A stretch of DNA of 20,326 nt from a virus: positions 1 through 20,326 of IMG/VR virus record IMGVR_UViG_3300009172_000094. The stretch is one strand, 5' to 3'. The position numbers and the translations under genes were made by a program. The notes below the pieces were generated by a model that worked only from the letters and a program-made list of their open reading frames with translations, ran no database searches and was not told the origin of the DNA. Every line of letters begins with the position of its first letter. The stretch's first letter is position 1. Of the stretch, positions 952 through 20,326 are shown one piece after another.

Positions 952-3354
952 ATGGCAGATTCTGTTATCAATAATTATTTTCCAAGCCAAGTCGTAAGTG
1001 ATTTGGAAAAAATGAGCTATGATTATGGTTTAAGTGTTGCTAGAGCGATAGAAACAGAGTGGTTTCATGTTGATAGAGGTTCTAATAGATATAGAAGTAA
1101 TCAAAATGATTTTCACAAGTTAAGATTATACGCTAGAGGAGAACAATCGATACAAAAGTATAAAGATGAGTTGTCAATAAATGGTGATTTATCTTATTTA
1201 AACTTAGACTGGAAACCAGTACCTATAATACCTAAGTTTGTTGATATAGTTGTAAATGGTATAGCAGAAAGAATGTATGATGTAAAAGCTTATTCACAAG
1301 ATCCATTTGGTGTTAGCAAGAGAACAGAATACATGGAGTCTATACTGTCTGACATGAGAACTAAAAAAATTAGCGAGTTTACTGAACAAGCTTTTGGTAT
1401 GTCACTGTTAGATAATCCAAAAGAATCTTTACCAGATTCAAAAGAAGAACTAGACTTACACATGTCGTTAACATACAAGCAAGCTGTAGAGTTAGCAGAA
1501 GAACAAGCTATCAATGTTTTGTTAGAAGGTAACGATTATGAATTAATTAAAAAAAGATTTTATTACGATATTACAACAATAGGTATTGGTGCTGTAAAAA
1601 CAAGTTTTAATACATCTGAAGGCGTTACTATCGATTATGTTGATCCAGCTGACTTGGTTTATTCTTATACTGAGTCACCATACTTTGATGATATATATTA
1701 CGTTGGTGAAGTTAAAATGATACCTGTAAATGAACTTGTAAAACAATTTCCACATTTAACAGAGAGTGACTTAGCTGATATAGTTAAAAACAAAAGTTAC
1801 CACAAGTCTAATTATCACAACAGCAACTATAATTTAAACGAAGAAGATAATAATAAAGTTCAAGTTTTATATTTTAATTATAAAACGTATATGAACGAGG
1901 TTTACAAAGTAAAAGAGACTGGTAGTGGAGCTGATAAAGTTTTAGCAAAAGATGATACTTTTAACCCACCACAAGGTATGGAGGGTGAGTACGCTAAACT
2001 GCAAAGATCTGTAGAGTGTTTGTATGAGGGAGCTTTAATACTTGGTACTAAAAAATTACTTAAGTGGGAAATGTCTAAAAACATGATGCGACCTAAGAGT
2101 GATTTTACTAAAGTAAAAATGAACTACGCTATTGTTGCGCCACGTATGTACAAAGGAAGAATAGAGTCTTTGGTTGGTAGAATTACTGGTTTTGCTGACA
2201 TGATACAGCTTACACATTTAAAGCTACAACAAGTAATGTCTCGTATGGTACCTGATGGTGTTTATTTAGATGCTGATGGACTTGCGGAAATAGATTTAGG
2301 CAATGGTACTAATTATAGTCCACAAGAAGCGTTAAACATGTTTTTCCAAACAGGATCTGTTATTGGTAGATCATTCACTTCAGAAGGTGATATGAATCCA
2401 GGTAAAATACCTATACAAGAAATACAATCAGGTTCTGGTAGTGGTAAAATGCAAACTTTAATTCAAACATATAATTATTATTTACAAATGATAAGAGATG
2501 TGACTGGATTAAACGAGGCTAAAGATGGTAGCACACCAGACAAGTATTCTTTAGTTGGTGTACAAAAACTAGCTGCGGCTAATTCTAACACAGCAACAAG
2601 ACATATACTACAATCAGGTTTGTTTTTAACAAAAGAAGTTTGTCAATGTTTATCAATGCGAGTTTCAGATATATTAGAGTATTCGCCAACAGCAAACGCT
2701 TTTATACAGCAAATAGGATCTCATAACGTTGCTACATTAAAAGAAATGTCACAACTACACTTATATGACTTTGGTATATTTATCGAGCTTATGCCTGATG
2801 AAGAAGAAAAAGCAATGCTTGAAAACAATATTCAACAAGCGTTATCTCAACAAGGTATTGATTTAGAAGATGCTATTGATCTTAGAGAAATAAAAAGTAT
2901 TAAACTTGCTAATAGATTGTTGAAGATAAGACGTAAGAAGAAAAAAGAAGAAGATCAAAAAATGCAGCAAGAAAATATAAAAGCTCAATCAGAAGCTAAT
3001 ATACAAGCTCAAAACGCTGCAGCAATGATGGAAGTTAAAAAGAACGAGGCGGTTACTATGAGTCAATTGCAGTTAGAAGAAGCAAAGGCTAATTTTAAAG
3101 CTAAATTTTTAGAACAAGAAGCAGCTATAAAAAAGGATTTAATGGAACATGAGTTTAAACTTAACATACAATTAGAGCAAGTTAAAAATGAATCTGTTAA
3201 TGGTAAAGAAAAAATGAAAGAAGATCGTAAAGACGAAAGAACTAAAATACAAGCTTCTCAACAAAGTGAACTAATAGATCAAAGAAATAATGGTAAAGCA
3301 CCTAAAAGTTTTGAGTCTACAGGTAATGATAACTTAAGAGGAACAAGTATTTAG
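952..3354 (+). CDS. Portal protein
   Basis: This is probably the dodecameric ring at the packaging and tail vertex, through which DNA enters and leaves the capsid. It has 800 residues, long for a portal but usual for crAss-like and related marine podoviruses. The centre (about residues 420-560) holds the most characteristic block, with RDVTGLNEAKDGS followed by LVGVQKLAAANSNTATRH; I recall this as a conserved portal segment in crAss-like phages. The C-terminus (about 650-785) is a long Lys/Glu/Gln-rich predicted coiled coil, starting with a cluster of basic residues (RRKKKKEE) and ending in a polar tail; it could form the barrel or an internal extension. The gene sits directly between terL and the probable scaffold, the canonical position. 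It is the only complete gene here that ends in TAG. No Shine-Dalgarno sequence precedes the start (AAAATAAATATG). Confidence 0.87.
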   Translation: MADSVINNYFPSQVVSDLEKMSYDYGLSVARAIETEWFHVDRGSNRYRSNQNDFHKLRLYARGEQSIQKYKDELSINGDLSYLNLDWKPVPIIPKFVDIVVNGIAERMYDVKAYSQDPFGVSKRTEYMESILSDMRTKKISEFTEQAFGMSLLDNPKESLPDSKEELDLHMSLTYKQAVELAEEQAINVLLEGNDYELIKKRFYYDITTIGIGAVKTSFNTSEGVTIDYVDPADLVYSYTESPYFDDIYYVGEVKMIPVNELVKQFPHLTESDLADIVKNKSYHKSNYHNSNYNLNEEDNNKVQVLYFNYKTYMNEVYKVKETGSGADKVLAKDDTFNPPQGMEGEYAKLQRSVECLYEGALILGTKKLLKWEMSKNMMRPKSDFTKVKMNYAIVAPRMYKGRIESLVGRITGFADMIQLTHLKLQQVMSRMVPDGVYLDADGLAEIDLGNGTNYSPQEALNMFFQTGSVIGRSFTSEGDMNPGKIPIQEIQSGSGSGKMQTLIQTYNYYLQMIRDVTGLNEAKDGSTPDKYSLVGVQKLAAANSNTATRHILQSGLFLTKEVCQCLSMRVSDILEYSPTANAFIQQIGSHNVATLKEMSQLHLYDFGIFIELMPDEEEKAMLENNIQQALSQQGIDLEDAIDLREIKSIKLANRLLKIRRKKKKEEDQKMQQENIKAQSEANIQAQNAAAMMEVKKNEAVTMSQLQLEEAKANFKAKFLEQEAAIKKDLMEHEFKLNIQLEQVKNESVNGKEKMKEDRKDERTKIQASQQSELIDQRNNGKAPKSFESTGNDNLRGTSI

Positions 3355-4592: not shown

Positions 4593-6026
4593 ATGTCAAT
4601 TACTAGAAGAACGTCGTTTCAAGCTGCACCAGTGCAAGCTGTTACGTCGCAAAATTACTTAGACATCCAAAACAACGGATGGGCACAGCAATACCTACCT
4701 GACTTAATGGAAAAAGAAGCTGAGGTTTATGGAAAAAGAACTATCTCAGGTTTCTTATCTCAAGTTGGTGCGGAAGAAGCTATGTCAGCTGATCAAGTTA
4801 TTTGGTCAGAACAAGGTAGATTACATCTATCTTACGAGTGTGATATGGTAGACGTTACAGCAAGTACAATTAATATTACTAAAGATATTGATGGTGTTGC
4901 TCAAACAACTACACACGGTATTAGAGTTGGTGATCAAGTATTGATCGCTGGAGGTGGACAAACTGTTACGGCTCGTGTAAGCGTTGCTGCTGCGGGTGCG
5001 CAAGTTATTACAGTGCAACCGTATAGATTTGCACACATGACAAATGCAGGTTTTGCTAATGGAGACAATACATGTACTATACTAGTATTTGGTTCTGAAA
5101 ACGCAAAAGGAGTTGCATACGTAGGAGGTAGATCTAATGAGCCATCTTTCACTACATTTACAAACAAGCCAATCATTTTAAAAGACATGTATGAGGTTTC
5201 AGGATCTGATGCTGCTCAAGTTGGTTGGGTTGAAGTTTCTGGTGAAGAAGGACAAAATGGTTACTACTGGTACTTAAAAGCTGAAGGAGATACAAGAGCT
5301 AGATTTACTGATTACTTAGAAATGAGTATGATTGAATCAGAGTTAGTTGCTGCTGCTTCTGCTATTGCTCTACCAACTGATGGTGGTGCAGGTACTGCGG
5401 GTACTGAAGGATTATTTGCTGCAATCAGATCAAGAGGTAATCAAACTTCAGGAGTTACGGGTACTAACCCTTCTACTGATTTTGCTGAATTTGATTTAAT
5501 CTTAGCTGAATTTGACAGAAATGGTGCTATTGAAGAAAACATGATGTTTGTAAATAGAGGAACTTCTCTTGCAATGGACGATATGTTAGCTTCATTAAAC
5601 TCTGGTTATTCTGGTGGTACTTCTTACGGAGTATTTAACAACTCAGAAGACATGGCTTTAAATTTAGGTTTCTCTGGTTTCAGACGTGGATCTTACGATT
5701 TCTACAAGTCTGACTGGAAATACTTAAACGATTTAGCTACTAGAGGTGGTATAAACAATTCTGCTACTGCAGGTGAAGATATTAGAGGGGTTGTTATACC
5801 AGCTGGTACTTCTTCAGTTTATGACCAACAATTAGGTAAAAACCTTAAGCGTCCTTTCTTACACGTAAGATATAGAGCTTCTCAGTTAGAAAGCAGAAAA
5901 ATGAAGACATGGGTTACTGGTTCCGTTGGAGCTGCTACGTCTGATCTTGATGCAATGACTGTAAACTTCTTATCAGAAAGATGTTTAATTACACAAGGTG
6001 CTAACAATTTCATGTTAATGAACTAA
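4593..6026 (+). CDS. Major capsid protein (HK97 fold, crAss-like type)
   Basis: This is the main shell protein of the head, 477 residues. The N-terminal part reads LDIQNNGWAQQYLPDLMEKEAEVYGKR in two adjacent segments, typical of the N-arm of this family. The C-terminus (about 420-477) contains RPFLHVRYRAS, KMKTWVTGSVG and LSERCLITQGANNFMLMN, which I recognise as the conserved end of crAss-like and marine flavophage capsid proteins. About residues 88-165 form a Val/Gly/Thr-rich beta segment (HGIRVGDQVLIAGGG) that looks like an inserted domain. Codon use differs from its neighbours: by hand count 8 of 20 Phe codons are TTC and 12 of 18 Tyr codons are TAC, against 0 of 11 and 6 of 20 in the first 250 codons of the portal gene. 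This is consistent with selection for high expression. An A-rich leader precedes it and a strong terminator hairpin follows. Confidence 0.9.
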   Translation: MSITRRTSFQAAPVQAVTSQNYLDIQNNGWAQQYLPDLMEKEAEVYGKRTISGFLSQVGAEEAMSADQVIWSEQGRLHLSYECDMVDVTASTINITKDIDGVAQTTTHGIRVGDQVLIAGGGQTVTARVSVAAAGAQVITVQPYRFAHMTNAGFANGDNTCTILVFGSENAKGVAYVGGRSNEPSFTTFTNKPIILKDMYEVSGSDAAQVGWVEVSGEEGQNGYYWYLKAEGDTRARFTDYLEMSMIESELVAAASAIALPTDGGAGTAGTEGLFAAIRSRGNQTSGVTGTNPSTDFAEFDLILAEFDRNGAIEENMMFVNRGTSLAMDDMLASLNSGYSGGTSYGVFNNSEDMALNLGFSGFRRGSYDFYKSDWKYLNDLATRGGINNSATAGEDIRGVVIPAGTSSVYDQQLGKNLKRPFLHVRYRASQLESRKMKTWVTGSVGAATSDLDAMTVNFLSERCLITQGANNFMLMN

Positions 6027-7715: not shown

Positions 7716-8591
7716 ATGGGATTACTAGGAACTACATCACAACAAACATACCAAAACTCTGGTGACCTTGGAAGTTATCAATACACTTCTCTTGAAGACA
7801 TTATAAATAATTTTATAGTTGGATATGTTGGTGAAAACAAATTAATAGGTAAAGTAAGAAGAACAGATGTTGCTTTTCACGCTCAAAGAGGATTAGCAGA
7901 ATTAAGTTATGATACTTTACGATCTAGAAAATCACAAGAAATAGAAATAGCACCAAGTTTAAAAATGATGCTACCACAAGATTACGTTAATTATGTAAAA
8001 ATATCATGGCATGATACTAATGGTATGGAAAGAATATTATACCCAGCTTTAAACACAAGTAATCCTACAGCTATATTGCAAGACGGTAATTACGATTACA
8101 GTTTAGATAGTGGTGGTAACTTACAGGTTGCAAGTGAATCTGATACTTGGAAAGCATTTAAAGCAACAACACCTAGCTCAACAGGTAATTTAGACGCAGA
8201 CTCAGACTACTATGCCGATATGTTTAGCGGTAGGTTTGGGCTAAGTCCTGAAAAAACTCAAGCTAATGGAAATTTTTATATAGATTACGCATTAGGTTTT
8301 ATACATTTTAGTTCAAACTTGAATGGTGAAACTGTTACTTTAAAATATGTAAGTGATAGTTTAGGTGTTGACGGTGATCAAATTGTTCATAAATTTGCTG
8401 AAGAAGCTTTGTACAAACACATTGCTTACGCATTGATATCAGCATCAGCTACAGTTCAAGAGCATGTAATTAGAAGATTTAAAAAAGAAAAGTTTGCAGC
8501 TACAAGACAAGCTAAATTAAGACTGTCAAATATTAAATTAGAAGAAATTGCTCAGGTAATGAGAAACAAATCTAAAAGAATAAAACACTAA
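7716..8591 (+). CDS. Probable tail ring / tail tubular adaptor protein
   Basis: A 291-residue protein. The N-terminal part (about 25-110) contains IINNFIVGYVGENKLIGK, VRRTDVAFHAQRGLAELSYD and a LPQDYVNYVKISW strand, and the C-terminal part (about 225-291) contains FAEEALYKHIAYALIS, RRFKKEKFAATRQAKLRL and a basic end. This two-helical-block layout with a beta-rich middle (about 110-220) is what I associate with P22 gp4-like or T7 gp11-like adaptors, and with the ring proteins of crAss-like podoviruses, which bind under the portal and carry the tail hub. The very short gap (AAT) to the giant hub gene and the 3-nt gap from the preceding gene indicate a tightly coupled tail operon. Exact ring identity among the several crAss-like ring proteins cannot be decided from sequence alone. 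Confidence 0.6.
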   Translation: MGLLGTTSQQTYQNSGDLGSYQYTSLEDIINNFIVGYVGENKLIGKVRRTDVAFHAQRGLAELSYDTLRSRKSQEIEIAPSLKMMLPQDYVNYVKISWHDTNGMERILYPALNTSNPTAILQDGNYDYSLDSGGNLQVASESDTWKAFKATTPSSTGNLDADSDYYADMFSGRFGLSPEKTQANGNFYIDYALGFIHFSSNLNGETVTLKYVSDSLGVDGDQIVHKFAEEALYKHIAYALISASATVQEHVIRRFKKEKFAATRQAKLRLSNIKLEEIAQVMRNKSKRIKH

Positions 8592-8594
8592 AAT

Positions 8595-11500
8595 ATGGCT
8601 GAGTTAAAGCATAATTTTACTAAAGGTCGAATGAACAAAGATGCTGACGAAAGATTAGTATCTAACGGTGAGTATAGAGACGCTATGAACATTGAGGTTT
8701 CTACCTCTGAAGATTCTGATGTTGGTACTATACAAACAACTTTAGGTAACACTTTAAAATCAGCTACTGGAACAACTACTGCTTTTACAGTTGGATCTAT
8801 TGTAGATCACAAAACAAACAAAGTGTATTGGATGGTTCATAATGATCAAGCCAATATCACTACAAGCGGTATTACTAAAGATATGATTGTTGAGTACAAC
8901 CCTACAACAGAAACAAATAAATACGTTTTTGTTGATATTTGGAAGGTTGTAACCTCAATAGGAACGTCTAATGGTGGTGCCGTTAAATATTTATATATAG
9001 CTCTTGGTGGTAGTACGGCAACTAATAATATTACTGGTATTAGAAAAGGTATGCAAATTATAGGTACTTTTAACAATATAGTTTATGGAGCAAACTCACA
9101 ACAAAACGTTTATGTTGAAGACATAGAGTTTGATGCGGTTAATGGTTGGAAAATAATTTTAAACAGAACTGTACAAACTGTTGCTGGTGAACAAATAACT
9201 TTTACAACAGAAAGATGTTTAAATTTTTCAAGAAATAGATTAATAACAGGTATAAACATTGTTGATGATATGTTGTTTTGGACCGATGGAGGTTCAGAAC
9301 CTAAAAAAATAAATATCATAAGAAGTATAAAAGGTACTGGTGGTTCTAGAACTTTAAATACAAATGCAACAACTACTTTTGATGGAGACAATTTTAATCA
9401 TCACACTAGACTTGTTATCGATGACATAGACAATGCGCCTGGAATATATGAAGTTGTTACAAATAGATTAGCTACATATCCTGTTTTTTGTAAAGAATCA
9501 CACTTAACAGTTCTTAGACCAGCACCTCAAACAGTATTACAGTTGGAAATGTCTAGAACCTCTTATAATAGAGGTAATGGGGTTACTGGCGCGGTTAATA
9601 GAACTGATGCTCAAGCAAATATACAGTTTTTTGACCCATTAATTACAACAGAACCATTAGCAAGTGGTAGCATGGTACAAGTTACTTTTGATCAAGCGCC
9701 TGACTATAGAGTAGGAGATTATATAATAATAACAAACGACACAACCGTTTTACCAACAGACTACAAAGATTATAAAGTTAGATGTAAAATATCTCAAATA
9801 CCAACTGGTCATACTAATAATAATTTAATGTTTGGAATATTTGAGTTAGAAATAATTACAATTTCTCAAGAATTAGTTTATAACGCTAGTGGTGAGCAGT
9901 TTTTCACTTTGTTAGAACAAAAAGATTCTGTGTTTGAATTTAAATTTCCTAAATTTAGTTATAGATATAAATATACCGATGGTGAGTATTCGGCTTTTGC
10001 ACCTTGGTCTGAAATAGCTTTTTTAGCTGGTAGTTTTGATTATGAACCTAAACACGGTCACAATTTAGGTATGACAAACCGTCTAAAATCTTTATGTTTA
10101 AAAAACTACGTACCAGAACCTGGAGAGATCGGCGCATCAAGACCTGGTGATGTTATTGCTATAGATATTTTATACAAAGAATCTAACAATACAAACATAT
10201 ACACTGTTAAAACAATAACTTCAAATGACAATCACCCTGTTTGGCCTGATCTCGCTACAAGAGCTTACGCAAGAGGAGAGTTAATTATTGACACAGAAAT
10301 GATACATGCTGTATTGCCATCTGATCAATTTTTAAGACCTTTTGATATTGTTCCAAGAAAAGCTAAATCTCAAGAAGTAACTGGTAATAGACTTGTTTAT
10401 GGTAACTACACACAGAATTATAATGTTGATGAAATTATAAATATTGAAACAACACTACAAGTAGGAAGTTTTTCTACACACAGTGATACCGGAGAAAAAT
10501 CTGTAAAATCATTAAGAGATTATCAAGTTGGAGTTGTTTACTTAGATAAGTACGGTAGAGAAACGCCAGTTTTAGTTGGGCCAGAAAAAGGATTTAAAAG
10601 AGTTGGTAAAGTATTTAGTGATAACTTTACAAAACTAAGAGCTAGACTTACAAACACACCACCATCATGGGCTAAAGGGTTTAAGTTTTATGTAAAAGAA
10701 CCTTCTAATGAGTACTATAACTTAGCAATGGATAGATGGTATAATGCTAAAGATGGTAATATATGGATAAGTTTTCCTTCTTCAGAAAGAAATAAAATTG
10801 ATGAAGATACTTTTTTAATACTTAAAAAATCTCACGCTAAAAACAAGTCTGTATCTGACGATGAAGCTAGATATAAAATACTTGCTATAGAAAGCGAAGC
10901 GCCAGAGTTCATAAAAAAAGTAAGAAAGAACTTAGGTGAAATGTTTGACAACAGCGCTAGAGAACACGTTGGTAACGGTGGTGATGGATTTCCTTTTCCA
11001 GGTTTTAATTACGTAGAAGTACCTTATGCTGCTTTAAACAATAGTAGTATTGTTGATATAGATGCTTCTGGAACTGTAAACCCTAAATCACCACACTTAC
11101 AAGACAATCTTTTTTTACGCGTAGGTGGTCCTGACAATCTTAGTGCAGAGTATGAAATTGTTGGTATTTCTAACACTGGTCAAGGTGGTAACTATAAGTT
11201 TAGATTAAACAAGCGTTTAGGTGATGATTTAGAATTTACTTCAACAGACGGAACATATGGTAATAGAATTAGCGGTTTGTTTATACAGTTGATACAATAC
11301 AGAATAGAGAACAAAGCAGAGTTTGATGGTAGGTTTTTTGTCAAAATAAATCAAGACCAAGTAATAAGAACAAATGTTATTGGTGATAAAATAAACTCTG
11401 AGGACATGATTGTTTATTCAGCAAGACATCTTAGGTATGTAAAATCTAAAGCAACACACCCAAACCATGCTGGTATGCCTAACTCAAATCAGTGGCACGG

Positions 11501-14500
11501 TACTAATAACTTTAATAGAGCTTGGGGTGGTATTGGTGGTGTTAGTGACCACGAAGACATACATAAAAAACTAGATGTTAATGGTTATTCATATTGGAAA
11601 GGTTTTATAAAGTTTAATAGAAATGGTAACGGTAGTAAGTTTTTTATTGACGAAGATAGTATAGTCACTATAGGTCCAGATGGATCTCCTGTTAGTTCTA
11701 ATTTAGCAACTGGTGATATGGCTACTAAAGCTTATTGCTTTCCAAATATTACAAACTCAGATAGTTTAACTAAACATGATGGGCAGAAAAACACTGGCTA
11801 TGGCGGTAACAGTGCTAAGTATCCAAAAGGAGTACACCAAGGCGCTAATGAACCTGTTGGTAGTAGAATAGATATATCTTGGGTAGGTTATGAAGATACT
11901 AATTACCCACAAAACAGTCCACCAGTTTTTTGGAGCCAACACGGTCAAGATATTGCTCCGGATGATTATGAGTTTTCAAAAGAGTGGTTTCAAATAGGTA
12001 CTAAATTTAGATTTGCAGGAGATGATGATGAAACTGTTTATACGGTTAAAGACTATCGACATGAGTTTGGTCTTAGAAACTTTCAGACTGTAAACGGTAA
12101 TGTTACATCATCTAATAGAAACAAAGGTTCGGTTTATAGAGACAAGTGGACTTTACAAGTAGAACCACCTATAGTAAGAACAGCTAGTGGTTTTTACCCT
12201 ACAGACATAAGACATGATGGTACACAAAACCAATTAGTTGAACTTGTTAGAACACACTCTGAGTATGGTGTAACACAATTTACTGATAATCCTGGTATTT
12301 TTGAAACAGAACCAAAAAAAGATGTTGGTTTAGATGTTTACTACGAAGCTAGTGTTACATACCCAACACAAATAACCTCTGACACAAATGAAATGTTTGC
12401 GCCTATAGGATCAACGGTAAGTGTTTTACCTAGTGCTGGTGCAACTGTCTCTGCTGGTTGTAAAGTGTTTAGCTGGAGTGATAATACTGTTACATTAGAC
12501 GGTAGCGTTACTGATCCTAACCAAGGAGAAATACTCGTGTTTACTAGACCTGACGGTGGAACTGTACAAGCTAAAGTTGAAGCTATTTCAGCATCTACAC
12601 AAGGTGGAGGAATAACTGTTGCTACTGGCTTGACAATGTATAGAGACGTTAGTAATCAAAGATTTACATTAGGATATACAAATTGTTTTGCTTTTCCACA
12701 AGGAGTAGAATCTGATAGAATTAGAGATGATTTTAACCAAATTACAATAGGTAAAGGAACTAAAGCTTCCACTGTGTTAGCTGAACAGTTTAACGAAGAA
12801 CATAGAAAATCAGGTTTAATATTTTCTGGAATATACAACTCTATGACTGGTGTTAATAATTTAAATCAATTTATAGCGTCAAGTGGTATTACTAAAGATT
12901 TAAACAATCAATATGGCTCTATACAAAAATTATTTACTAGAGATAACAACATAGTTGCTTTTTGTGAAGATAAAATATTAAAAGTATACGCAAATAAAGA
13001 TGCGTTGTTTAACGCTGATGGTAGCTCAAACGTTGTTGCTACCAATAGGTTTTTAGGAGATTCACAGCCTTTTGGTGGTGATTTTGGAATATCTAAAAAT
13101 CCAGAATCATTTGCTCAAGAAAACTTTAGAATATATTTTACCGACAAATCTAGAGGTGCGGTTTTAAGATTGTCTAAAGATGGTCTAACCGTTATATCTA
13201 ACCAAGGCATGGCAGATTATTTTAGAGATCACCTACCACTAGCATCAGATTTGATAGGTAGTTACGATAAAAGAAAAGGCTTGTACAACCTTACTCTACA
13301 TGATAAAGGTGTTAATCCAGACGGTAGAGGTATTGGTGCTGGTATAACTTATGTGCCAAAAGTAAATACAACTATAAGTTTTAGTGAAAAATCTAGTGGT
13401 TGGACGTCTTTTAAATCTTTTGTTCAAGAGTCTGGCGTTAGTTTAGACAACAATTATTACACGTTTAAAAAAGGTGAAATATTTCTTCACCACAGTAACC
13501 AAGAAACAAATAATTATTACGATACTATTGCTGACGTAACTAACGGTGCGTTTTCTAGCGTAACAGTAATGTTAAATGATCTACCTGGTTCTGTTAAAAG
13601 TTTTAATACATTAAACTACGAAGGAACGCAGTCTCAAATTGATTTGTTTCAAACAATAACTATTGGTGGTGTTGTTTACAATGACGGCGAGTTTTACAAC
13701 TTAAAACCTAAAAAAGGTTGGTTTGTAGAGTCTATGATCACAGACTTGCAAACAGCTAGGTTAAAAGAGTTTATAGAAAAAGAAGGCAAATGGTTTAATT
13801 ACTTATATGGTGAAACAACTACGTTGGCTAATTTAGATAGTAGAGAGTTTTCGTATCAAGGTATAGGTATGGCTGAATCTATAACGCACAATGGACCAAC
13901 GCCTATTTATGGTTGCACAGATTCTACAGCTTTAAATTACAACCCAGCGGCTACAATAGATGATGGATCTTGTTTATACATTAACAACCCAATACAAACA
14001 AACGCATACTTGTGGAACAATATACTACAACCTTGTAAAGGTAGTTGTTTACCTAATTTCACTACAGCTGCTGATTACGAGTTTACGCACACCATAACTG
14101 TAAACCCTAGTTTACCAGCAAACACAACTGCTACTGTAGGTATTATATCGGTACAGCCTTTCCAACAATTAAACGGTTGTGCAGGTACACAAACTATTGA
14201 CGGTGCAGCTCCTGATAATACAACTATAAACCCTGTTTACACAATAGCGTTTACAGCTGATACAGGTTTCAAATTTACAGGAGTACCATCGGCAACTATA
14301 ACTATTAACGATGCAAGTACTTCAATAACTGATTACACTATAACTCAAACAGCTCTTGTTTACGATGCTAATTCAAACCTGACTGGAGCTACATTTGAAG
14401 TTGCTTTTGTAACTCCTGGCGCGGCAATGACAGTTCGTGACGATATAAAATGGAATATATGTACCACTCAGATACCAACAATAAACAATAGCACTTACAC

Positions 14501-14534
14501 ACTAACAGTACAAGACGATCCAAACGATCATTAA
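8595..14534 (+). CDS. Giant tail hub / stabilization (muzzle-type) protein with adhesin-like C-terminus
   Basis: At 1979 residues this is the largest protein here. The N-terminus (NFTKGRMNKDADERLVSNGE, YRDAMNIEVSTSEDSDVGT) is the signature I recall from tail stabilization or P22 gp10-like proteins of crAss-like and marine phages. Propeller-like YWTD-type elements occur: VYWMVHND near residue 77, LFWTDGG around W229, and IYFTDKSRGAVLRLS near 1510. About 690-760 resembles a fibronectin-like strand set (ARLTNTPPSWAKGFKFYV). About 1400-1560, including LFTRDNNIVAFCEDKILKVY, is a second conserved block. Residues 1773-1793 carry a Cys-bracketed GCTD...DDGSC motif, followed by a Cys-containing beta domain to the end. 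It probably forms the tail nozzle and presents variable parts to the host surface. It may act with the appendage gene 3 nt downstream. Roles beyond tail assembly are inferred. Confidence 0.75.
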   Translation: MAELKHNFTKGRMNKDADERLVSNGEYRDAMNIEVSTSEDSDVGTIQTTLGNTLKSATGTTTAFTVGSIVDHKTNKVYWMVHNDQANITTSGITKDMIVEYNPTTETNKYVFVDIWKVVTSIGTSNGGAVKYLYIALGGSTATNNITGIRKGMQIIGTFNNIVYGANSQQNVYVEDIEFDAVNGWKIILNRTVQTVAGEQITFTTERCLNFSRNRLITGINIVDDMLFWTDGGSEPKKINIIRSIKGTGGSRTLNTNATTTFDGDNFNHHTRLVIDDIDNAPGIYEVVTNRLATYPVFCKESHLTVLRPAPQTVLQLEMSRTSYNRGNGVTGAVNRTDAQANIQFFDPLITTEPLASGSMVQVTFDQAPDYRVGDYIIITNDTTVLPTDYKDYKVRCKISQIPTGHTNNNLMFGIFELEIITISQELVYNASGEQFFTLLEQKDSVFEFKFPKFSYRYKYTDGEYSAFAPWSEIAFLAGSFDYEPKHGHNLGMTNRLKSLCLKNYVPEPGEIGASRPGDVIAIDILYKESNNTNIYTVKTITSNDNHPVWPDLATRAYARGELIIDTEMIHAVLPSDQFLRPFDIVPRKAKSQEVTGNRLVYGNYTQNYNVDEIINIETTLQVGSFSTHSDTGEKSVKSLRDYQVGVVYLDKYGRETPVLVGPEKGFKRVGKVFSDNFTKLRARLTNTPPSWAKGFKFYVKEPSNEYYNLAMDRWYNAKDGNIWISFPSSERNKIDEDTFLILKKSHAKNKSVSDDEARYKILAIESEAPEFIKKVRKNLGEMFDNSAREHVGNGGDGFPFPGFNYVEVPYAALNNSSIVDIDASGTVNPKSPHLQDNLFLRVGGPDNLSAEYEIVGISNTGQGGNYKFRLNKRLGDDLEFTSTDGTYGNRISGLFIQLIQYRIENKAEFDGRFFVKINQDQVIRTNVIGDKINSEDMIVYSARHLRYVKSKATHPNHAGMPNSNQWHGTNNFNRAWGGIGGVSDHEDIHKKLDVNGYSYWKGFIKFNRNGNGSKFFIDEDSIVTIGPDGSPVSSNLATGDMATKAYCFPNITNSDSLTKHDGQKNTGYGGNSAKYPKGVHQGANEPVGSRIDISWVGYEDTNYPQNSPPVFWSQHGQDIAPDDYEFSKEWFQIGTKFRFAGDDDETVYTVKDYRHEFGLRNFQTVNGNVTSSNRNKGSVYRDKWTLQVEPPIVRTASGFYPTDIRHDGTQNQLVELVRTHSEYGVTQFTDNPGIFETEPKKDVGLDVYYEASVTYPTQITSDTNEMFAPIGSTVSVLPSAGATVSAGCKVFSWSDNTVTLDGSVTDPNQGEILVFTRPDGGTVQAKVEAISASTQGGGITVATGLTMYRDVSNQRFTLGYTNCFAFPQGVESDRIRDDFNQITIGKGTKASTVLAEQFNEEHRKSGLIFSGIYNSMTGVNNLNQFIASSGITKDLNNQYGSIQKLFTRDNNIVAFCEDKILKVYANKDALFNADGSSNVVATNRFLGDSQPFGGDFGISKNPESFAQENFRIYFTDKSRGAVLRLSKDGLTVISNQGMADYFRDHLPLASDLIGSYDKRKGLYNLTLHDKGVNPDGRGIGAGITYVPKVNTTISFSEKSSGWTSFKSFVQESGVSLDNNYYTFKKGEIFLHHSNQETNNYYDTIADVTNGAFSSVTVMLNDLPGSVKSFNTLNYEGTQSQIDLFQTITIGGVVYNDGEFYNLKPKKGWFVESMITDLQTARLKEFIEKEGKWFNYLYGETTTLANLDSREFSYQGIGMAESITHNGPTPIYGCTDSTALNYNPAATIDDGSCLYINNPIQTNAYLWNNILQPCKGSCLPNFTTAADYEFTHTITVNPSLPANTTATVGIISVQPFQQLNGCAGTQTIDGAAPDNTTINPVYTIAFTADTGFKFTGVPSATITINDASTSITDYTITQTALVYDANSNLTGATFEVAFVTPGAAMTVRDDIKWNICTTQIPTINNSTYTLTVQDDPNDH
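13908..13979 (+). other. Bacteroidota-type GCTD...DDGSC extracellular motif
   Basis: This segment codes for residues 1772-1795 of the giant tail protein: YGCTDSTALNYNP, then AATIDDGSCLY. The form GCTD-x-x-A-x-NYNP-x-A-x-x-DDGSC is a recurrent short module in secreted and surface proteins of marine Bacteroidota. The two cysteines probably form a disulfide and the Asp cluster may bind calcium. It marks the boundary between the conserved tail core and the divergent C-terminal domain. Confidence 0.7.
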
Positions 14535-14537
14535 AAT

Positions 14538-16391
14538 ATGGGACATAACGCAAACACAAACTATACAGTAAGCCAAAGCATAACTAGTGAATTTAGTGGT
14601 GATTCAGTAGCTTTAGGAACTCTACCTAATCAAGGTGGTGTAAACGGTAACGTTATATTAACTATAACGCCAAACGCAGGTTTTACTGTTAATTCTTCTG
14701 ACTTTACTATAGCGGGTTTACCTGCGGATAACACTGTTACAGTTACGTCATCAACAATAACAAACCCAGCTACTGGAAATGCTTTAAGTGTTGTTCAATA
14801 TAATTTTATTAGTGTAGGTTCTGGTGGTACAGCTTCTTCTTTACCAGGTGAAGTTGAAAGTGTTGCAATGTTTAATAGCGAGCATGATTATGACAGTACG
14901 GCAAACGTATATGTTCCAGTTACAGCTAACAATGTTGTATATGTTCACGTGGCGTTTATGAACAATTTTATTATGCCACCTGCAAATCTAACGTTAAACA
15001 TAGATATAGACGGCTCGGCATCAGCAACAGGTGCTATACAATATCCTGCAATATGGGAAACTTGGACAAGTCCAGCGGGGTCTGAATATACTTTGACCGC
15101 TGTAGGTAATCCTGCTTTGACAAACATGAGTCTTTCTTCACAAATTAGCGTTAACCCAAACAGCACTACACTTTTAAATACAGTATCGGGTTTGGTTGAT
15201 GATGGTGTTCAAACGCTTTTAATGACAAAAACTTTTCAAGCTGTTTCTGGTTTTTATTTTACTGACATTACAGAACAACAACAATTCACTCCTTTTGGTT
15301 TAGATGATTGGCTACCTTATTTCCAAACAATAATAACAAATCAAGTTTTTAATAGTAACTTAGAAGAAACTCAAAGAGTTTATGAATTTTACTACACAAA
15401 CCCACCAGTTAGTAATCAACTTGGTTTAGATCCAACATTTGGCGGGAGTATATATGGGTTAGGATTTTTATTTGAATATATAATCGGAACTCAAGCAACA
15501 GTATATTCATCGCCAGGTGGAAATGGCGGTGGTATATCTCCTTTAGTACCTCAACGACCTTATGGTGGTTTAGTAAGCTCAACATCAAGCACGGGGCTTG
15601 GCGGTGAAGTTGAAGATGTAAACCCATCTGTAATCTCTATACCAAACACAACTTTCTTTGAAGAAGTTACAAATGTTGTTTTAGACACAAGCAAAGAAAT
15701 AAACGCTATTGGTGGTGAGTCAAGACCTATAACTCTGTATGGTACTGTAGGAGCGACTTACTCTATAACCATATCTGATGGTAGTAAAACATACACTGAT
15801 AGTAACAACACTTTTACTTCTGGAGCTACTGTAATTGATGGTGTAATAGGTAGCGAAGGATTAACAAACCATTTAATAACATATCCAGCGGTTACTGCAA
15901 CAACAACTTATACTTTAACATTAAGCAGTAGATTTGGAACTAAGCTACCAACAGGTATTGTTGATGGTTCTGCTGGTAATCTAGGTACTATAGCCGCTAA
16001 CATAACAAAAACGTTTACATTATCTTTTGCTTCTGCTAGTGACATATCAAACGACTTACCGGCAGACATTGTGTTTTCTTTCGCTGATTTAAGTCAAAGA
16101 TCGAGTAGAACTTTTAAAGTAGAAGTAGTAGGTGATGTTGGAGAAACTTTTGTAAGCGTTGCCGCTACAGATGACGCTCCAGATGCAACTGTAGTAGCTG
16201 CAATGTCTGTAACAGCTGGTAGTGCTAGTGGTTGGGAATGGTCTTTATCAGGTTTTAACCTTGTTCATGGAGGTGTTGACGAAGATGGAAGAGATAGATT
16301 TACAATGGGAGGAACAATAACTGTTCAAACTCTTGGAGCAGCAAACGTAAAATATGCAATTGCATTAGACACAATAACTAACGTATCATAA
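14538..16391 (+). CDS. Beta-rich tail appendage / fibre-like protein
   Basis: A 617-residue protein of Ser/Thr/Val/Gly/Asn-rich composition with almost no cysteine, typical of beta-sandwich or fibre proteins. Residues 1-95 form an Ig-like unit (ILTITPNAGFTVNSSDFTIAG) that resembles the last domain of the preceding giant protein (TIAFTADTGFKFTGVPS). About 100-310 is a larger beta/aromatic region. A Gly/Ser/Pro hinge (SSPGGNGGGISPLVPQRPYG) lies near 324-343, followed by flexible GGLVSSTSSTGLGG. About 375-617 holds further Ig-like strands (PITLYGTVGATYSITISDGS) and a final repeat ending in YAIALDTITNVS. It has no signal peptide and no enzymatic (depolymerase) motif. Position directly after the hub gene suggests a tail appendage or receptor-binding part. 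Host-binding function is inferred; a head fibre is an alternative. Confidence 0.55.
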   Translation: MGHNANTNYTVSQSITSEFSGDSVALGTLPNQGGVNGNVILTITPNAGFTVNSSDFTIAGLPADNTVTVTSSTITNPATGNALSVVQYNFISVGSGGTASSLPGEVESVAMFNSEHDYDSTANVYVPVTANNVVYVHVAFMNNFIMPPANLTLNIDIDGSASATGAIQYPAIWETWTSPAGSEYTLTAVGNPALTNMSLSSQISVNPNSTTLLNTVSGLVDDGVQTLLMTKTFQAVSGFYFTDITEQQQFTPFGLDDWLPYFQTIITNQVFNSNLEETQRVYEFYYTNPPVSNQLGLDPTFGGSIYGLGFLFEYIIGTQATVYSSPGGNGGGISPLVPQRPYGGLVSSTSSTGLGGEVEDVNPSVISIPNTTFFEEVTNVVLDTSKEINAIGGESRPITLYGTVGATYSITISDGSKTYTDSNNTFTSGATVIDGVIGSEGLTNHLITYPAVTATTTYTLTLSSRFGTKLPTGIVDGSAGNLGTIAANITKTFTLSFASASDISNDLPADIVFSFADLSQRSSRTFKVEVVGDVGETFVSVAATDDAPDATVVAAMSVTAGSASGWEWSLSGFNLVHGGVDEDGRDRFTMGGTITVQTLGAANVKYAIALDTITNVS

Positions 16392-16392
16392 T

Positions 16393-16764
16393 ATGCCACT
16401 AATAACACTAACATTTCCAGCAACACTAGATTTAAATGTATCTTGTCAAGTGGGCGACACAGCTTACTTTAGCTCAACAACTAACGTGGCTGGTTTTAAC
16501 ACGTCGGCACAGTCAGACATTATTGAAATAGGTTTAATAACATCTATAACGTACACGAATGGTCAGTGGATTATTATTTGTGACACGTTGCTTTCAAACG
16601 GACAACAACCAGGTGTAAATGATTTTATTAGTTTTTCTAAAAATAACACAGCTAACTTGACAAGCGTGCTTGGTTATTACGCAGAAACAAAGTTTGTAAA
16701 CTCTTCAAGTATAAAATCTGAACTATATTCAGTTGGTAGCGATTACTTTGTAAGTAGTAAATAA
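16393..16764 (+). CDS. Small beta-rich virion-module protein of unknown function
   Basis: A 123-residue protein starting one base after the previous stop, so probably translated by coupling. It begins MPLITLTFPATLDLNVSCQV, then GDTAYFSSTTNVAGFN, and is beta-rich throughout; two Cys (C18 and C55) are present. The C-terminal half (FISFSKNNTANLTSVLGYYA, then ETKFVNSSSIKSELYSVGSD) ends in SSK. I recall short proteins of this pattern following tail-fibre genes in uncultured marine flavophages, but none with a known role. Plausible roles are a decoration protein on the appendage or a small tail component. No catalytic or membrane features are seen. A 45-nt gap with an inverted repeat follows, so it closes the hub-appendage block. 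Confidence 0.65.
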   Translation: MPLITLTFPATLDLNVSCQVGDTAYFSSTTNVAGFNTSAQSDIIEIGLITSITYTNGQWIIICDTLLSNGQQPGVNDFISFSKNNTANLTSVLGYYAETKFVNSSSIKSELYSVGSDYFVSSK

Positions 16765-16781: not shown

Positions 16782-16810
16782 TATAATATAAATAATTAAC
16801 TTATATTATA
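16782..16810 (+). promoter_or_regulatory. Perfect 10-bp inverted repeat overlapping the start of the cupin-like gene
   Basis: TATAATATAA (16782-16791) and TTATATTATA (16801-16810) are exact reverse complements around the 9-nt spacer ATAATTAAC. The last base of the right arm is the A of the ATG. The left arm includes TATAAT, but no convincing -35 element lies at the right distance. It may be an operator or a weak AT-only hairpin hiding the start codon. The function is not shown by the sequence. Confidence 0.5.
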
Positions 16811-17271
16811 TGTCTGATAACTCGGTAGTTACAAAATCAAAAGTAATTGAACTACAAAATGAATTACTTAAAAATGTTGATAATGAAAACATTATAGGTA
16901 ATAACGGTGGAATAGTTAGAAGCGAAGTGTTTCCACTAAAACATAGTTTTGCAGACGGTAAATATGTTAGACAAATGGAAATGAGTAAAGACTCTATGGT
17001 TGTTGGCGCTATACATAACCACGAACATTTATGGTTTTTACTAAAAGGTAACATAGTAATATTAGCAAACGAAAAAACTGAGGAATATATTGCGCCATGT
17101 TATGTTAAGTGTCCGCCGGGAATAAAAAGAGTTATATATGCTGTTAGTGATAGTATATTTGTAAATATACACAAAAACCCAACAAACACACAAGATTTAA
17201 ATGAATTAGAAGCTGAAATAGTTTCAGGAAGCTACGAAGAGTATGAAGAATATCAAAATAAAAACAAATAA
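16810..17271 (+). CDS. Cupin-like small protein
   Basis: A 153-residue soluble protein. The centre fits a single cupin (double-stranded beta-helix) fold: motif 1 is GAIHNHEHLWFLLKG (G66, H69, H71, H73, G80), and motif 2 is PPGIKRVIYAVSDSIFVNIH (P103, G104, R107, N119, H121). Compared with the classical metal site, the HxH pair is present, but the Glu expected 4-5 residues later is absent and the motif-2 His is replaced by R107. Metal binding is therefore possible but enzyme activity is doubtful. The N-terminal 45 residues are polar; the C-terminus is an acidic helix (DLNELEAEIV) with EEYEEYQNKNK. Similar small proteins with an 'A.SD..FVN.H' end are, from memory, frequent in structural regions of marine phages with no known role. 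It is separated from its upstream neighbour by the longest gap of the distal region. Confidence 0.6.
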   Translation: MSDNSVVTKSKVIELQNELLKNVDNENIIGNNGGIVRSEVFPLKHSFADGKYVRQMEMSKDSMVVGAIHNHEHLWFLLKGNIVILANEKTEEYIAPCYVKCPPGIKRVIYAVSDSIFVNIHKNPTNTQDLNELEAEIVSGSYEEYEEYQNKNK

Positions 17272-17274
17272 AAT

Positions 17275-17916
17275 ATGAGTTTTATAATAGTAGGAGTAGC
17301 CGCTACCTCGGGATTAACAAAGATAGGTATGGCATTGGCTGGTCGTAAAAAAAGAATAGCAGAGCAAAAAGCTGCAAACAAAGAGCTTCAGCAAAGAAGA
17401 GATGCTTACGAAAGTTTAGATACTAGTAATCCGTATTTAAACATGGAAAATACTATGGAAGATTTAACTGTAAACCAACAACAAGCACAGTTCCAAAAAG
17501 ATATGGCTCAACAACAACAGTCAAACATGTTAGGTTCTATGCAGCAAAGTGGTGGTTTTAATGCTGGTAATATACAAGCTATGGTTAACGCTGGATCAAA
17601 TCAAGCAAGACAAGCTTCGGCTAGTATAGGACAACAAGAAGCACAAAATCAAAAAGCAGAAAGATCTATGGCTGGTCAAATACAAGCTAAAGAAAGAGCA
17701 GGTGATGTATATTCAAGAGGTCAGAAAAAAGATAAAGTTGAAACACTGTTTGGTATGTCTATGCAACGATCAAAAGAGTCTGACGAAGCTAGACAAAGAG
17801 CAGGTCAAATGATTGCTAGTGGTGTTGGTGATTTTGCTAGCGCTGGGATTGGCACTGTGCAAGCTGGCCAAGCAAACATGGCGGAAGGTTTAAAATTCTT
17901 TGGTGGACAAAAATAA
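17275..17916 (+). CDS. Gln/Ala-rich internal virion-type protein
   Basis: A 213-residue protein. Residues 2-23 form a short hydrophobic, glycine-containing segment (FIIVGVAATSGLTKIGMALAG) followed by a basic helix (RKKRIAEQKAANKELQQRRD). The rest is Gln-, Ala-, Met- and Gly-rich (QQQAQFQKDMAQQQQ; MLGSMQQSGGFNAGNIQAM) and ends with another Gly/Ala-rich amphipathic stretch (IASGVGDFASAGIGTVQAG). This layout resembles small internal or ejected virion proteins of podoviruses (T7 gp14 or P22 gp7-like in general character), which insert into or cross the host envelope during DNA ejection. That role is inferred from composition and position. The gene starts 3 nt after the cupin-like gene and is followed closely by a large unknown gene. 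Confidence 0.5.
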   Translation: MSFIIVGVAATSGLTKIGMALAGRKKRIAEQKAANKELQQRRDAYESLDTSNPYLNMENTMEDLTVNQQQAQFQKDMAQQQQSNMLGSMQQSGGFNAGNIQAMVNAGSNQARQASASIGQQEAQNQKAERSMAGQIQAKERAGDVYSRGQKKDKVETLFGMSMQRSKESDEARQRAGQMIASGVGDFASAGIGTVQAGQANMAEGLKFFGGQK

Positions 17917-17925
17917 TAAATAATT

Positions 17926-19674
17926 ATGGTAAAGAAATTTGAAAAACACATGATGTATGGTGATGGCAAGTCAAAAATGGCTAACACTAAAAAACAACAT
18001 TTAAACCTTAAAGCTAAAGGTTGGGGTCATACTAAACCTAAAAGTCCTTTAAAAATAAATCAAGCTTTAATAGAAAATTATAAAGGAGTAAACAAGTACA
18101 CTAGAACTGGTGGAGGTACTAGAATGCCTGAGATGGACGTTGAAACTGTTGACTCTATGTTTAAGCCTATGGCTGCAACTGCTAGTCAAGGTTTAGAAAA
18201 AAGTTTTTTAAACCAAAAACCACCTGCAGAAGAAGAAGAAAATAACCAAACAGAGGAAAAAACAACAGAAAAAACTCCAAGAGAAAAACCAGATAAAACA
18301 GTTGAAGAAACTGATGATGATGGGCTTTTTGATATAAATGACGAAAGTGAACCAGAAAAAGAAACAAGAAGAGAAAAAAGGCAAAAAAGAAAACAAGAAA
18401 AATTAGACAAAAAAGATCAAGAATCACAAGGGCCAAATTTAAATGAGAACTTTGATAAAACAAATAATGAGCTTAGAAAAAATAAAAGTCTTACATTAGA
18501 ACAAAATACATTAGCTGGTGATCCAAAACCTACAAGATTAAGAGTTAGAAGTGTTTATGATAAAGGTAGAAGAAATGACAATGTTGTTGAAGTTAATGGA
18601 CAACGTATGTCTAATGAGGATTTTGAACAGTCTTTTGGTACAGCAACACGTAGAGGTAATGATCCTACACGAAAAGGTGCTGGTGATTATGATTTTAATG
18701 GTTCGTTAGCACCTAACTCACCTTTTAAGATGCGTGAAGGTGATCAAGAAACTTACGATCCTTTAACTGATCTTCAAATGAAAAATCCAAACATAGAAAG
18801 AGAAGTAGACACTTACATTGAAAACACTAGTTTAGTAGGTGATGAAAAACTAGATATTTTAGGAGCACAAGCTAACTCTAGAGTTTTTGATTTTTCAAAA
18901 CAATTGAAAGATCAAGCTAACATGTATATTGAATCAGAAGGTAACAGTAGAGTTGTAAACGACTCTATAAACACGTTGAGAGGTTTAGCACAGAAAGTAA
19001 ACAACTTGGTTGATAAAAAAGCTGAGTGGATAGAAAATAACGGTGGTGGTGAAGCTGGTAAGCGTGGTTTCTCAAAAGGATCTTCTGGTAAAAATAAGTT
19101 TATGCAAAACGCTATATTTACTGAAAGAGATGATTTATATAAAATGATACTACCTTTACCTGAAACTACTGTAAGCGGTGATACAAAGTTTGGAGATGTA
19201 GAATTTGCTTTTGGGGATTTTAATGATGAACAAAGACCAAATTCGGTTGTAAAGTCTGGTCAAATATTTAAAGATGTGTTTATGAAGCCAGAGGGTAAGT
19301 TTGCAGATTTTAGAAAAGCAGCTGTAAAACAAGGTGAAAACTCTAGAGACAGAAAACCATTTAATGCTTATCATTCTGAGGTTGTTGTAAACGGTTTGTT
19401 AGATTCAAAAGAAAACATACTAGCTTTTGCTTGGGATGATTTTGCTGGACCATCTTTTATAGATCAATATGCAGAAGCTCGTCCTAACGAAGATATTAGT
19501 TGGGCAGATGTTGATAATCCAAAATTTAACGAAGATAGATTAAAAAAAGAAGTTGGTTATTGGCTTAATCAAAAGCTTAAAACAGAGCATGAAATGACAA
19601 AGGCAAATAATCAAGCTACGTCATACTTAGATCAAATGTCACCAGATGAATTAATAGCAAAATATTCAAAATAA
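17926..19674 (+). CDS. Large charged virion-module protein of unknown function
   Basis: A 582-residue protein that I cannot assign. Residues 1-50 are very basic with a KAKGWGHTKPKSPLK block, and may bind nucleic acid or be cleaved. About 90-190 is a low-complexity charged region (EEEENNQTEEKTTEKT; KETRREKRQKRKQEKLDKKD), probably disordered. The remainder looks folded and mixed: DFNGSLAPNSPFKMREGDQ near 255-273, a helical part (about 300-375), GDVEFAFGDFNDEQRP near 425 and a C-terminal alpha-helical part (HEMTKANNQATSYLDQMSPD). Two SP[LF]K motifs occur at S40 and S265. There is no membrane segment or catalytic motif that I recognise. Position among distal virion genes suggests a packaged (cargo) or internal protein. 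The 9-nt gap upstream and 1-nt gap downstream indicate co-translation. Confidence 0.6.
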   Translation: MVKKFEKHMMYGDGKSKMANTKKQHLNLKAKGWGHTKPKSPLKINQALIENYKGVNKYTRTGGGTRMPEMDVETVDSMFKPMAATASQGLEKSFLNQKPPAEEEENNQTEEKTTEKTPREKPDKTVEETDDDGLFDINDESEPEKETRREKRQKRKQEKLDKKDQESQGPNLNENFDKTNNELRKNKSLTLEQNTLAGDPKPTRLRVRSVYDKGRRNDNVVEVNGQRMSNEDFEQSFGTATRRGNDPTRKGAGDYDFNGSLAPNSPFKMREGDQETYDPLTDLQMKNPNIEREVDTYIENTSLVGDEKLDILGAQANSRVFDFSKQLKDQANMYIESEGNSRVVNDSINTLRGLAQKVNNLVDKKAEWIENNGGGEAGKRGFSKGSSGKNKFMQNAIFTERDDLYKMILPLPETTVSGDTKFGDVEFAFGDFNDEQRPNSVVKSGQIFKDVFMKPEGKFADFRKAAVKQGENSRDRKPFNAYHSEVVVNGLLDSKENILAFAWDDFAGPSFIDQYAEARPNEDISWADVDNPKFNEDRLKKEVGYWLNQKLKTEHEMTKANNQATSYLDQMSPDELIAKYSK

Positions 19675-19675
19675 T

Positions 19676-20326
19676 ATGGCTGAAACAATAGAACAGATAG
19701 AAGAATTAACTTTAGAGCAAAAAACAAAGCTTGCTAATACTATAAAAGGTATGAAGGAAGATGGGGTGGCTGACGAAGTTATTCAACAGTCTGTTATAGA
19801 CATTAAACAAAGCTTTAAACAAAAAAACTCACAAGCTATTGTTGCTAAAAATTTGTTTAGAGAAAGTGTTATGCTTCCTGAGGTTGAGGTTAAAGGTGGA
19901 GATGGAACTGTTACTGAAAATGATTTTAAAGAGATGGATAAAAATATAATTACTGACAAAGGTAATAAATATTTAAATGGAATAGGTTTAGAGTTTAGTC
20001 CAAACTTTACTGGAGGAGTTGAGCTTAACGATCCTGAAGCAAATGAAGCAGATCCTGACTATGAAAGTTCTACAATAAAAGTTGGACCTGTTGTAAATTA
20101 TTTAAATCCTAGCTATGCTGGCAAGGCAGAAGTTTTTGTTAAAGAAAAAATAGATTTAAAAATTAAAGAATTAGAAGACAATCCTGAAATGTTTTTTGAC
20201 GCTGAGCTATACAACAAGTCTCACGAGTACATGTGGAAAAACACTCCAACAATAAACCACCCTACAGAAAACAGGTATTTAAATGTTGACGAGTTAGATG
20301 GTGATCAATTAGAAAATTTTAAAAAA
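19676..20326 (+). CDS. N-terminal part of a further virion-module protein (3' truncated by the window)
   Basis: An ATG one base after the preceding stop opens a frame that stays open for all 217 codons to the last base. It begins MAETIEQIEELTLEQKTKLA, continues with a helical, acidic N-terminus (about 1-75), then a mixed section (LPEVEVKGGDGTVTENDFKE; YLNGIGLEFSPNFTGGVELN) and a helical segment near 155-180 (VKEKIDLKIKELEDNPEMFF). No function can be given. In crAss-like phages this place is usually taken by very large internal or cargo proteins, so a long internal virion protein is a reasonable guess. Codon use and start context (AATAATATG) match the other genes, which supports it as a real gene. 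Confidence 0.75.
   Translation, partial: MAETIEQIEELTLEQKTKLANTIKGMKEDGVADEVIQQSVIDIKQSFKQKNSQAIVAKNLFRESVMLPEVEVKGGDGTVTENDFKEMDKNIITDKGNKYLNGIGLEFSPNFTGGVELNDPEANEADPDYESSTIKVGPVVNYLNPSYAGKAEVFVKEKIDLKIKELEDNPEMFFDAELYNKSHEYMWKNTPTINHPTENRYLNVDELDGDQLENFKK

Follow-up and report, generated by a model that had tools for sequence, protein, structure and literature searches.

To our knowledge, the roles of gp13 of phage T7 and gp14 of phage P22 are poorly understood. T7 gp13 (Pfam PF11090, named 'probable scaffold') is a small protein whose gene occupies the slot between those for the nozzle protein gp12 and the ejection protein gp14, and P22 gp14 (DUF2824; PHROG 651, head morphogenesis) is encoded immediately 5' of ejection gene 7. 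A cobavirus GNAT is tentatively equated in PMC6775973 with T7 gp13 and with virion morphogenesis. In our comparison, the alignment of T7 gp13 with GNATs was collinear and weak (hhalign E 0.02, probability 2%), and a profile of T7 gp13 relatives gave no match in the PDB. P22 gp14 was considered as a possible GNAT from the appearance of its sequence, for which hhalign gave no support; the 80 relatives retained were at least 94% identical, too close for a useful profile, and these relatives were left out.

Phage cupins have been described in other terms. In PMC8703784, a depolymerase role is suggested for the cupin of a Ralstonia phage, without experimental validation, and a cupin 'short tail fiber' is mentioned for Ralstonia phage phiAP1, whose ORF43 may be a homologue. 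Among the papers listed by our literature searches, none was seen to tie the cupin described here to the gp13/gp14 slot.

Cupin-fold protein and its gene neighbourhood

The window analysed here (20,326 nucleotides, the whole of the viral DNA examined) encodes portal and major capsid proteins that are 39–52% identical, among the matches listed, to those of phi38:1, elemo, Panino, and a Manatee Spring phage, with the capsid protein also matching that of Calle. The window is a module of podovirus type, with Cellulophaga phage phi38:1, Flavobacterium phage elemo, and Maribacter phage Panino among its relatives. The cupin gene lies between the tail-hub block and the gene for a 213-amino-acid protein (Table 1). 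The context of tail and internal virion genes described by an earlier, sequence-only reading of this DNA was correct, and the open reading frame is at the coordinates that it gave. The 213-amino-acid protein gave no match in its own PHROG search and was assigned by its position and by the profiles of its relatives; it takes the place of phi38:1 gp99, T7 gp14, and P22 gp7. Near the cupin gene, we counted 11 promoter-like sites, compared with 6.8 (sd 2.7) in shuffled sequences, and a terminator search found none. Many relatives that have nothing in the slot carry, directly adjoining the gp14-like gene, a small open reading frame that by eye resembles the 123-amino-acid protein encoded 5' of the cupin. 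The hub protein carries near its COOH-terminus a GCTDSTALNYNPAATIDDGSC stretch, possibly a host-derived segment; stretches of this type are typical of repeats in secreted Bacteroidetes proteins. In Panino (L073, 16996–17613), the tblastn match to the window hub crosses the annotated end of the hub into the next gene, as if the gene had been split.

Table 1. Coordinates of virion genes and cupin features in the window.
Feature	Position	Strand	Basis or remark
Portal protein	952..3354	+	Sequence match
Major capsid protein homologue	4593..6026	+	39–47% identity among 25 matches listed
291-aa virion protein, PHROG 13977	7716..8591	+	Query for slot-blind clade sampling
Large hub or tail protein, 1979 aa, PHROG 14478 (virion structural protein)	8595..14534	+	
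617-aa protein in hub-to-slot interval	14538..16391	+	tblastn matches in 11 loci
123-aa protein 5' of cupin	16393..16764	+	Open reading frame
153-aa protein with cupin fold, ATG to TAA	16810..17271	+	PHROG 12032/24280/34170 family
Predicted β-barrel, residues 43–122	16936..17175	+	AF2 secondary structure; helices 5–20 before, 130–137 and 142–151 after
H69-N-H71-E-H73	17014..17028	+	H69 matches the second His of the classical HxH; H71 is additional; H73 stands in the Glu position
R107, place of motif-2 His	17128..17130	+	Arg/Lys in 144/144 distinct domains
H121, last barrel strand	17170..17172	+	Family alignment
213-aa protein, first of ejection block, hydrophobic NH2-terminus	17275..17916	+	Starts 3 bases past cupin stop
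Second ejection-block protein, place of phi38:1 gp100	17926..19674	+	Position only; no PHROG match
Start of following protein, cut by window end	19676..20326	+	Position only

A scan of IMG/VR with a pattern returned 80 matches, of which 71 were relatives, with identities of 49–95%. The window protein and 39 of these 71 relatives were aligned, and this alignment was the input for a structure model with AlphaFold2 (AF2). The model (mean pLDDT 88.4, pTM 0.80) shows a barrel preceded by one helix and followed by two. The best 50 of 493 Foldseek matches in the PDB at E ≤ 0.001 (best E 9e-7) were all cupins or cupin-type proteins, some of them presumably so. Alignment with VIA-align gave HP0902 at Z 11.3 (rmsd 2.4, 87 residues aligned), and the other matches listed, at Z 9.6–10.8, were of cupin type, again with some entries presumably so. 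By all three analyses, the barrel is the double-stranded β-helix of the cupin superfamily, as the sequence-only reading had predicted. The best match in a library of viral structures was a protein of Virus NIOZ-UU157 (TM 0.90, 42% identity).

Sequence searches placed the protein in PHROG 12032, 'short tail fiber protein' (E 1.4e-25, residues 9–150), PHROG 24280 (3.1e-20), and PHROG 34170 (3.3e-14), with 'tail fiber adhesin' as another label on the matches. Pfam and NCBIfam gave no usable match to the window cupin, and a PDB search with the single sequence gave only matches of E 0.76 or worse. The top PDB matches of the profile, Ika8/Ika4 (6g6o, 6g6q), were dropped, the alignment shown consisting of seven weak repeated matches. 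The family occurs in phages of very different hosts. A scan of genome contigs revealed a single relative, on the Bacteroidetes MAG contig QQUU01000066.1 (L250), and thus no cellular source; the location of this relative hints at a Bacteroidetes host.

Metal-site register and conservation of the pocket

Classical cupins carry motif 1, G(X)5HXH(X)3-4E(X)6G, and motif 2, PxG(X)2H. The sequence-only reading had described a degenerate metal site, with an HxH formed by H69 and H71, a late His (H121), no canonical Glu, and an Arg in place of the motif-2 His. The three His residues, the missing Glu, and R107 were all placed correctly in this description, but its HxH was shifted by one step. The manganese cupin TM1459 was a fold match, and a profile alignment with it that is weak on its own (E 0.06–0.9) sets A67 on H52, H69 on H54, H71 on W56, and H73 on H58, with the TM1459 numbering taken from mutant names. 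In this register, the classical HxH corresponds to A67-x-H69, H71 is an extra residue, and H73 stands in the Glu position, as does the His of TM1459. The window cupin thus deviates from motif 1 at A67 and H73, retains G80, and has R107 for the His of motif 2. It shares with TM1459-type manganese cupins the fold, the His in the Glu position (H58, H73), and H54 (H69), and differs from them in having Ala67 for H52 and Arg107 for the motif-2 His. H121, 14 residues after R107, presumably lies near C106 of TM1459 by an ungapped count.

Among 144 distinct domains of the family, R54 and G80 were invariant and position 107 was always basic (Arg in 83, Lys in 61). His73 was present in 140 domains, His69 in 120 (Gln in the other 24), and either His67 or His69 together with His73 in 139; H69, H73, and H121 occurred jointly in 82. 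Arg107 went together with His121 in 80 domains and Lys107 with Tyr121 in 58, the other 6 domains being exceptions; the pairing tracks the clades, and the numbers do not represent independent events. Within the family, the clade of the window is characterized by HxHxH and H121, and the group of long, mostly SET-fused proteins by Lys107 (55/56) and Tyr121 (55/56), this group being defined by length and containing at least one misplaced member. Among the 74 distinct relatives that are at least 40% identical to the window protein, H69, H73, and H121 were invariant and H71 was present in 71. A degenerate site in the sense of a decaying one does not agree with these counts; the pocket is strongly conserved. 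The likely ligand of the pocket formed by His69, His73, His121, and Arg107 is a metal or an anion, which would serve stability or binding and not an essential reaction.

The slot and its exchange

We inspected 16 annotated phage records containing a family member. In 14 of them (VAC_51, Sphaerotilus R1, P26218, VPMS1, Amaethon, MW202744, MW202691, 1.061.O, ZP9, DSL-LC05, 234P9, X14, BA3, and T4S1), the cupin is encoded directly 5' of the gene that opens the next block. A gene labelled as tail or head closure is found upstream in 10 of these 14 records; the region is largely unnamed in Amaethon, ZP9, and BA3, and VPMS1 has mixed labels around the cupin, with 'internal virion protein' upstream. 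In five records (VAC_51, P26218, VPMS1, DSL-LC05, and 234P9), the next gene carries a label of DNA ejection, DNA transfer, or internal virion protein, and our PHROG searches with the next gene matched internal virion proteins for VAC_51 and Sphaerotilus R1 and a DNA ejection protein for P26218. The cupins of VAC_51 and Sphaerotilus R1 take the place of T7 gp13, as does that of the window when its gene order is read by analogy; cupin and gp13 show no sequence relation, with a profile alignment of only 10 columns. The cupin likewise shares with P22 gp14 the position ahead of the ejection genes and belongs to a separate family. In the remaining two records, both of Foturvirus phages, the cupin is encoded between the RNA polymerase and the connector and does not adjoin the ejection block; the slot is empty there, the nozzle gene abutting the next, unnamed gene, which is followed by that for an internal virion protein. 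Sphaerotilus R1 has an annotated acetyltransferase between the RNA polymerase and the connector (L081, 1116–1553) and the cupin in the gp13 slot. Given that the Foturvirus cupin is found at the same RNA polymerase–connector site, this site and the gp13 slot may be interchangeable.

For the spacing analysis, 171 cupin loci were reduced to 169 by removal of 2 duplicates, and 156 of these had at least 300 bases downstream, the other 13 being too short. In all 156, the nearest in-frame start of the next open reading frame fell between −43 and +6 relative to the cupin stop, the commonest distances being +3 (58 loci) and −4 (29 loci), with selection of the nearest start favouring small distances. 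Independently of this selection, the annotated next start was −19 to +1 bases from the cupin stop in 14 of the 14 slot-type phage records. Downstream open reading frames matched an ejection-protein profile in 118 of 156 loci, a count that is partly circular given that the profiles were built from such neighbours. As a cross-check, 11 of 12 GNAT neighbours were recovered by the profile built from cupin neighbours, and the converse search recovered 63 of 67 cupin neighbours, with the denominators counted from length lists. The 38 open reading frames without a profile match all follow cupins with a COOH-terminal tail of at least 141 amino acids; a search with 7 of them found no PHROG match, and 10 inspected by eye begin with a Gly/Ala-rich hydrophobic stretch. 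The NH2-terminus of gp14-like proteins was far more hydrophobic than that of other open reading frames, with a median of 2.13 (n = 73) for the best 15-residue Kyte-Doolittle mean within the first 35 residues, compared with a 95th percentile of 1.65 for other open reading frames (n = 1611).

The same slot in phi38:1 (gp98), elemo (gp69), and Panino (CDS0073) encodes PHROG 17252 proteins, not cupins. We considered phi38:1 gp98, which is annotated as 'structural' by similarity to phi18:1 (annotation only), as a counterpart of the cupin; by sequence and by the model of its relatives it was a GNAT, and the comparison became a finding of exchange. A model of a slot-GNAT relative from 8 sequences reached a pLDDT of 90.8 (74.5–90.8 over five models) and matched N-terminal acetyltransferases, including the Ard1 NAT 4lx9 (Z 17.2, rmsd 1.9, 130 residues aligned). 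The window cupin does not have the GNAT fold, and the profile alignment of the two families (A3 versus A4) covers 7 columns.

For a sample of the clade that was blind to slot content, we used the 291-amino-acid core protein as query and kept the best 80 of at least 595 relatives, a sample that leans toward the kin of the window. The slot was visible in 43 of the 80 loci. It was occupied by a cupin in 7 and by a GNAT in 10, the other 26 had neither, and no locus had both; several of the GNAT loci are near-copies, and one locus scored as neither (L137) has a truncated ejection gene. Across the whole contigs of the 26 loci with neither, 25 had no cupin anywhere, with the proviso that the contigs may be fragments, and one had a cupin elsewhere, in a second related module (L170). 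A search for GNATs over the same 26 contigs, run without a positive control, found none. In a tree of the core protein with 52 rows (12 cupin, 14 GNAT, 26 neither), the cupin label required 7 changes, 6 of them forced by well-supported branches, and the three labels together required 13 changes, compared with 22.4 when shuffled. In a 115-row tree of the gp14-like protein, from which the window was omitted, the raw number of label changes was 14.

Over the 7.1 kb that finish with the gene before the slot, the DNA of L170 is 82% and 86% identical to that of L150 and L134, respectively. The cupin comes next in L170 only, and at the ejection gene the sequences are again alike (79% and 76% identity). 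The cupin thus behaves as a one-gene cassette. Contig G022 (129.5 kb) contains two closely related virion modules, L170 with and L137 without the cupin, and may be chimeric or may have arisen when the assembly linked two phages.

Among the 169 cupins, 76 extend at least 60 amino acids past the barrel, and 69 of these 76 contain an NH[SC] motif. Four fused relatives were scanned with the Pfam SET model (cut-off, 22.4 bits); L163 (27.0) and L206 (27.6) passed and L173 (15.7) and P26218 (16.2) fell below. SET-like COOH-terminal fusions (L076, 11899–12774; L163, 6920–7681; L173–L249) are found in relatives of Rhodoferax phage P26218.

Possible roles of the slot protein

Having observed the fold, the family, the slot with its tight spacing, the exchange with a GNAT or with nothing, and the conserved pocket, we propose, with an even chance of being right, that the cupin, as an exchangeable factor, helps in the assembly or loading of the first ejection protein and is not a tail fibre. 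The slot is filled by a GNAT-fold protein in the closest cultured relatives and by T7 gp13 or P22 gp14 in the model phages, and the cupin is swapped as a one-gene cassette. The cupin would be made together with the first ejection protein (gp14/gp7-like), whose hydrophobic NH2-terminus is probably membrane-active, and would bind this protein or a neighbouring part of the virion through the pocket or the flanking helices. It would either keep the ejection protein soluble or load it into the procapsid or tail, and may or may not remain in the virion. Several observations speak against such a loading factor. Neither a cupin nor a GNAT was present in 26 of the 43 clade loci, and the gp14-like genes of L170 and L150, with and without the cupin, are approximately 79% identical in DNA. 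The Foturvirus cupins lie away from the ejection block, and Sphaerotilus R1 also has its annotated acetyltransferase elsewhere. In a co-evolution test with 14 loci, the correlation between cupin and gp14 (r = 0.35) was weak next to that between gp14 and the core protein (0.69), with 0.25 for cupin and core, and thus gave no sign of tight co-evolution with a client. The 38 downstream open reading frames that matched no ejection-protein profile, the mixed labels around the VPMS1 cupin, the weak homology of T7 gp13 to GNATs, and the unsupported one of P22 gp14 count on the same side. Finally, the strong conservation of the pocket suggests chemistry or ligand binding more than it does a plain chaperone.

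Given the SET fusions, an enzymatic reading is worth stating. The slot enzymes might modify ejection or tail proteins during assembly, the GNAT as an acetyltransferase, the SET domain fused to the cupin as a lysine methyltransferase, and the cupin itself through a His-ligated metal. The closeness of the GNAT to N-terminal protein acetyltransferases, the two SET domains above the cut-off, the NH[SC] motif of the long tails, and the conserved pocket are all consistent with such a role, which we nevertheless judge unlikely: cupin metal enzymes do not usually have an Arg or Lys where a ligand is expected, the slot is empty in 26 of 43 loci, no substrate is known, and no enzymatic role of T7 gp13 appeared in the literature consulted. 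The broader form of this reading, a slot of short-tailed phages dedicated to protein-modifying enzymes (GNAT, SET, cupin metal enzyme) that are swapped as one-gene cassettes and edit ejection or tail proteins during assembly, we regard as slightly more doubtful.

A structural part of the tail, or a short tail fibre or adhesin whose barrel decorates or plugs the tail tip and perhaps binds sugar, would agree with the PHROG labels and with the adjoining tail-hub genes, and small β-barrels are common in tails. The labels, however, are transferred annotation, the predicted monomer consists of one barrel and helices without a fibrous region, the slot is shared with GNAT-fold proteins and not with fibres, and in some P22-like carriers other genes intervene between the gp10-like gene and the cupin; we therefore consider this role improbable. 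The window protein shares with PHROG 12032 the sequence family, the cupin fold, and, in most records inspected, the slot, and the name of that family implies a fibre that neither fold nor slot supports. The label 'short tail fiber', frequent for this family in phage annotation, is probably wrong; the slot ties the family to T7 gp13 and P22 gp14. The cupin may yet be the sugar-binding or structural virion barrel suggested by the sequence-only reading, but the position of the gene points to the ejection-protein block. Location beside that block would also suit a protein packaged with the ejection proteins and delivered for takeover of the host, and cargo proteins are known in crassvirus virions (PMC10172136); no host target is known, the exchange with a GNAT and the absence from sister phages are neutral in this regard, and such a function appears distinctly unlikely. 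An enzyme acting on host glycans, the remaining suggestion of the sequence-only reading, found no positive evidence here. A depolymerase would have the unvalidated Ralstonia proposal in its favour, but there is no spike or fibre context and the hosts of the family differ widely, and we hold this possibility to be extremely remote.

If the enzyme-slot reading were true, the edits would modulate insertion into the membrane or evasion of host exclusion systems. Members of the family should not be picked as receptor-binding proteins or depolymerases. Two unrelated folds are exchanged at one site, and close relatives with and without the cassette are available, so that the role of the slot in podovirus ejection is directly testable.
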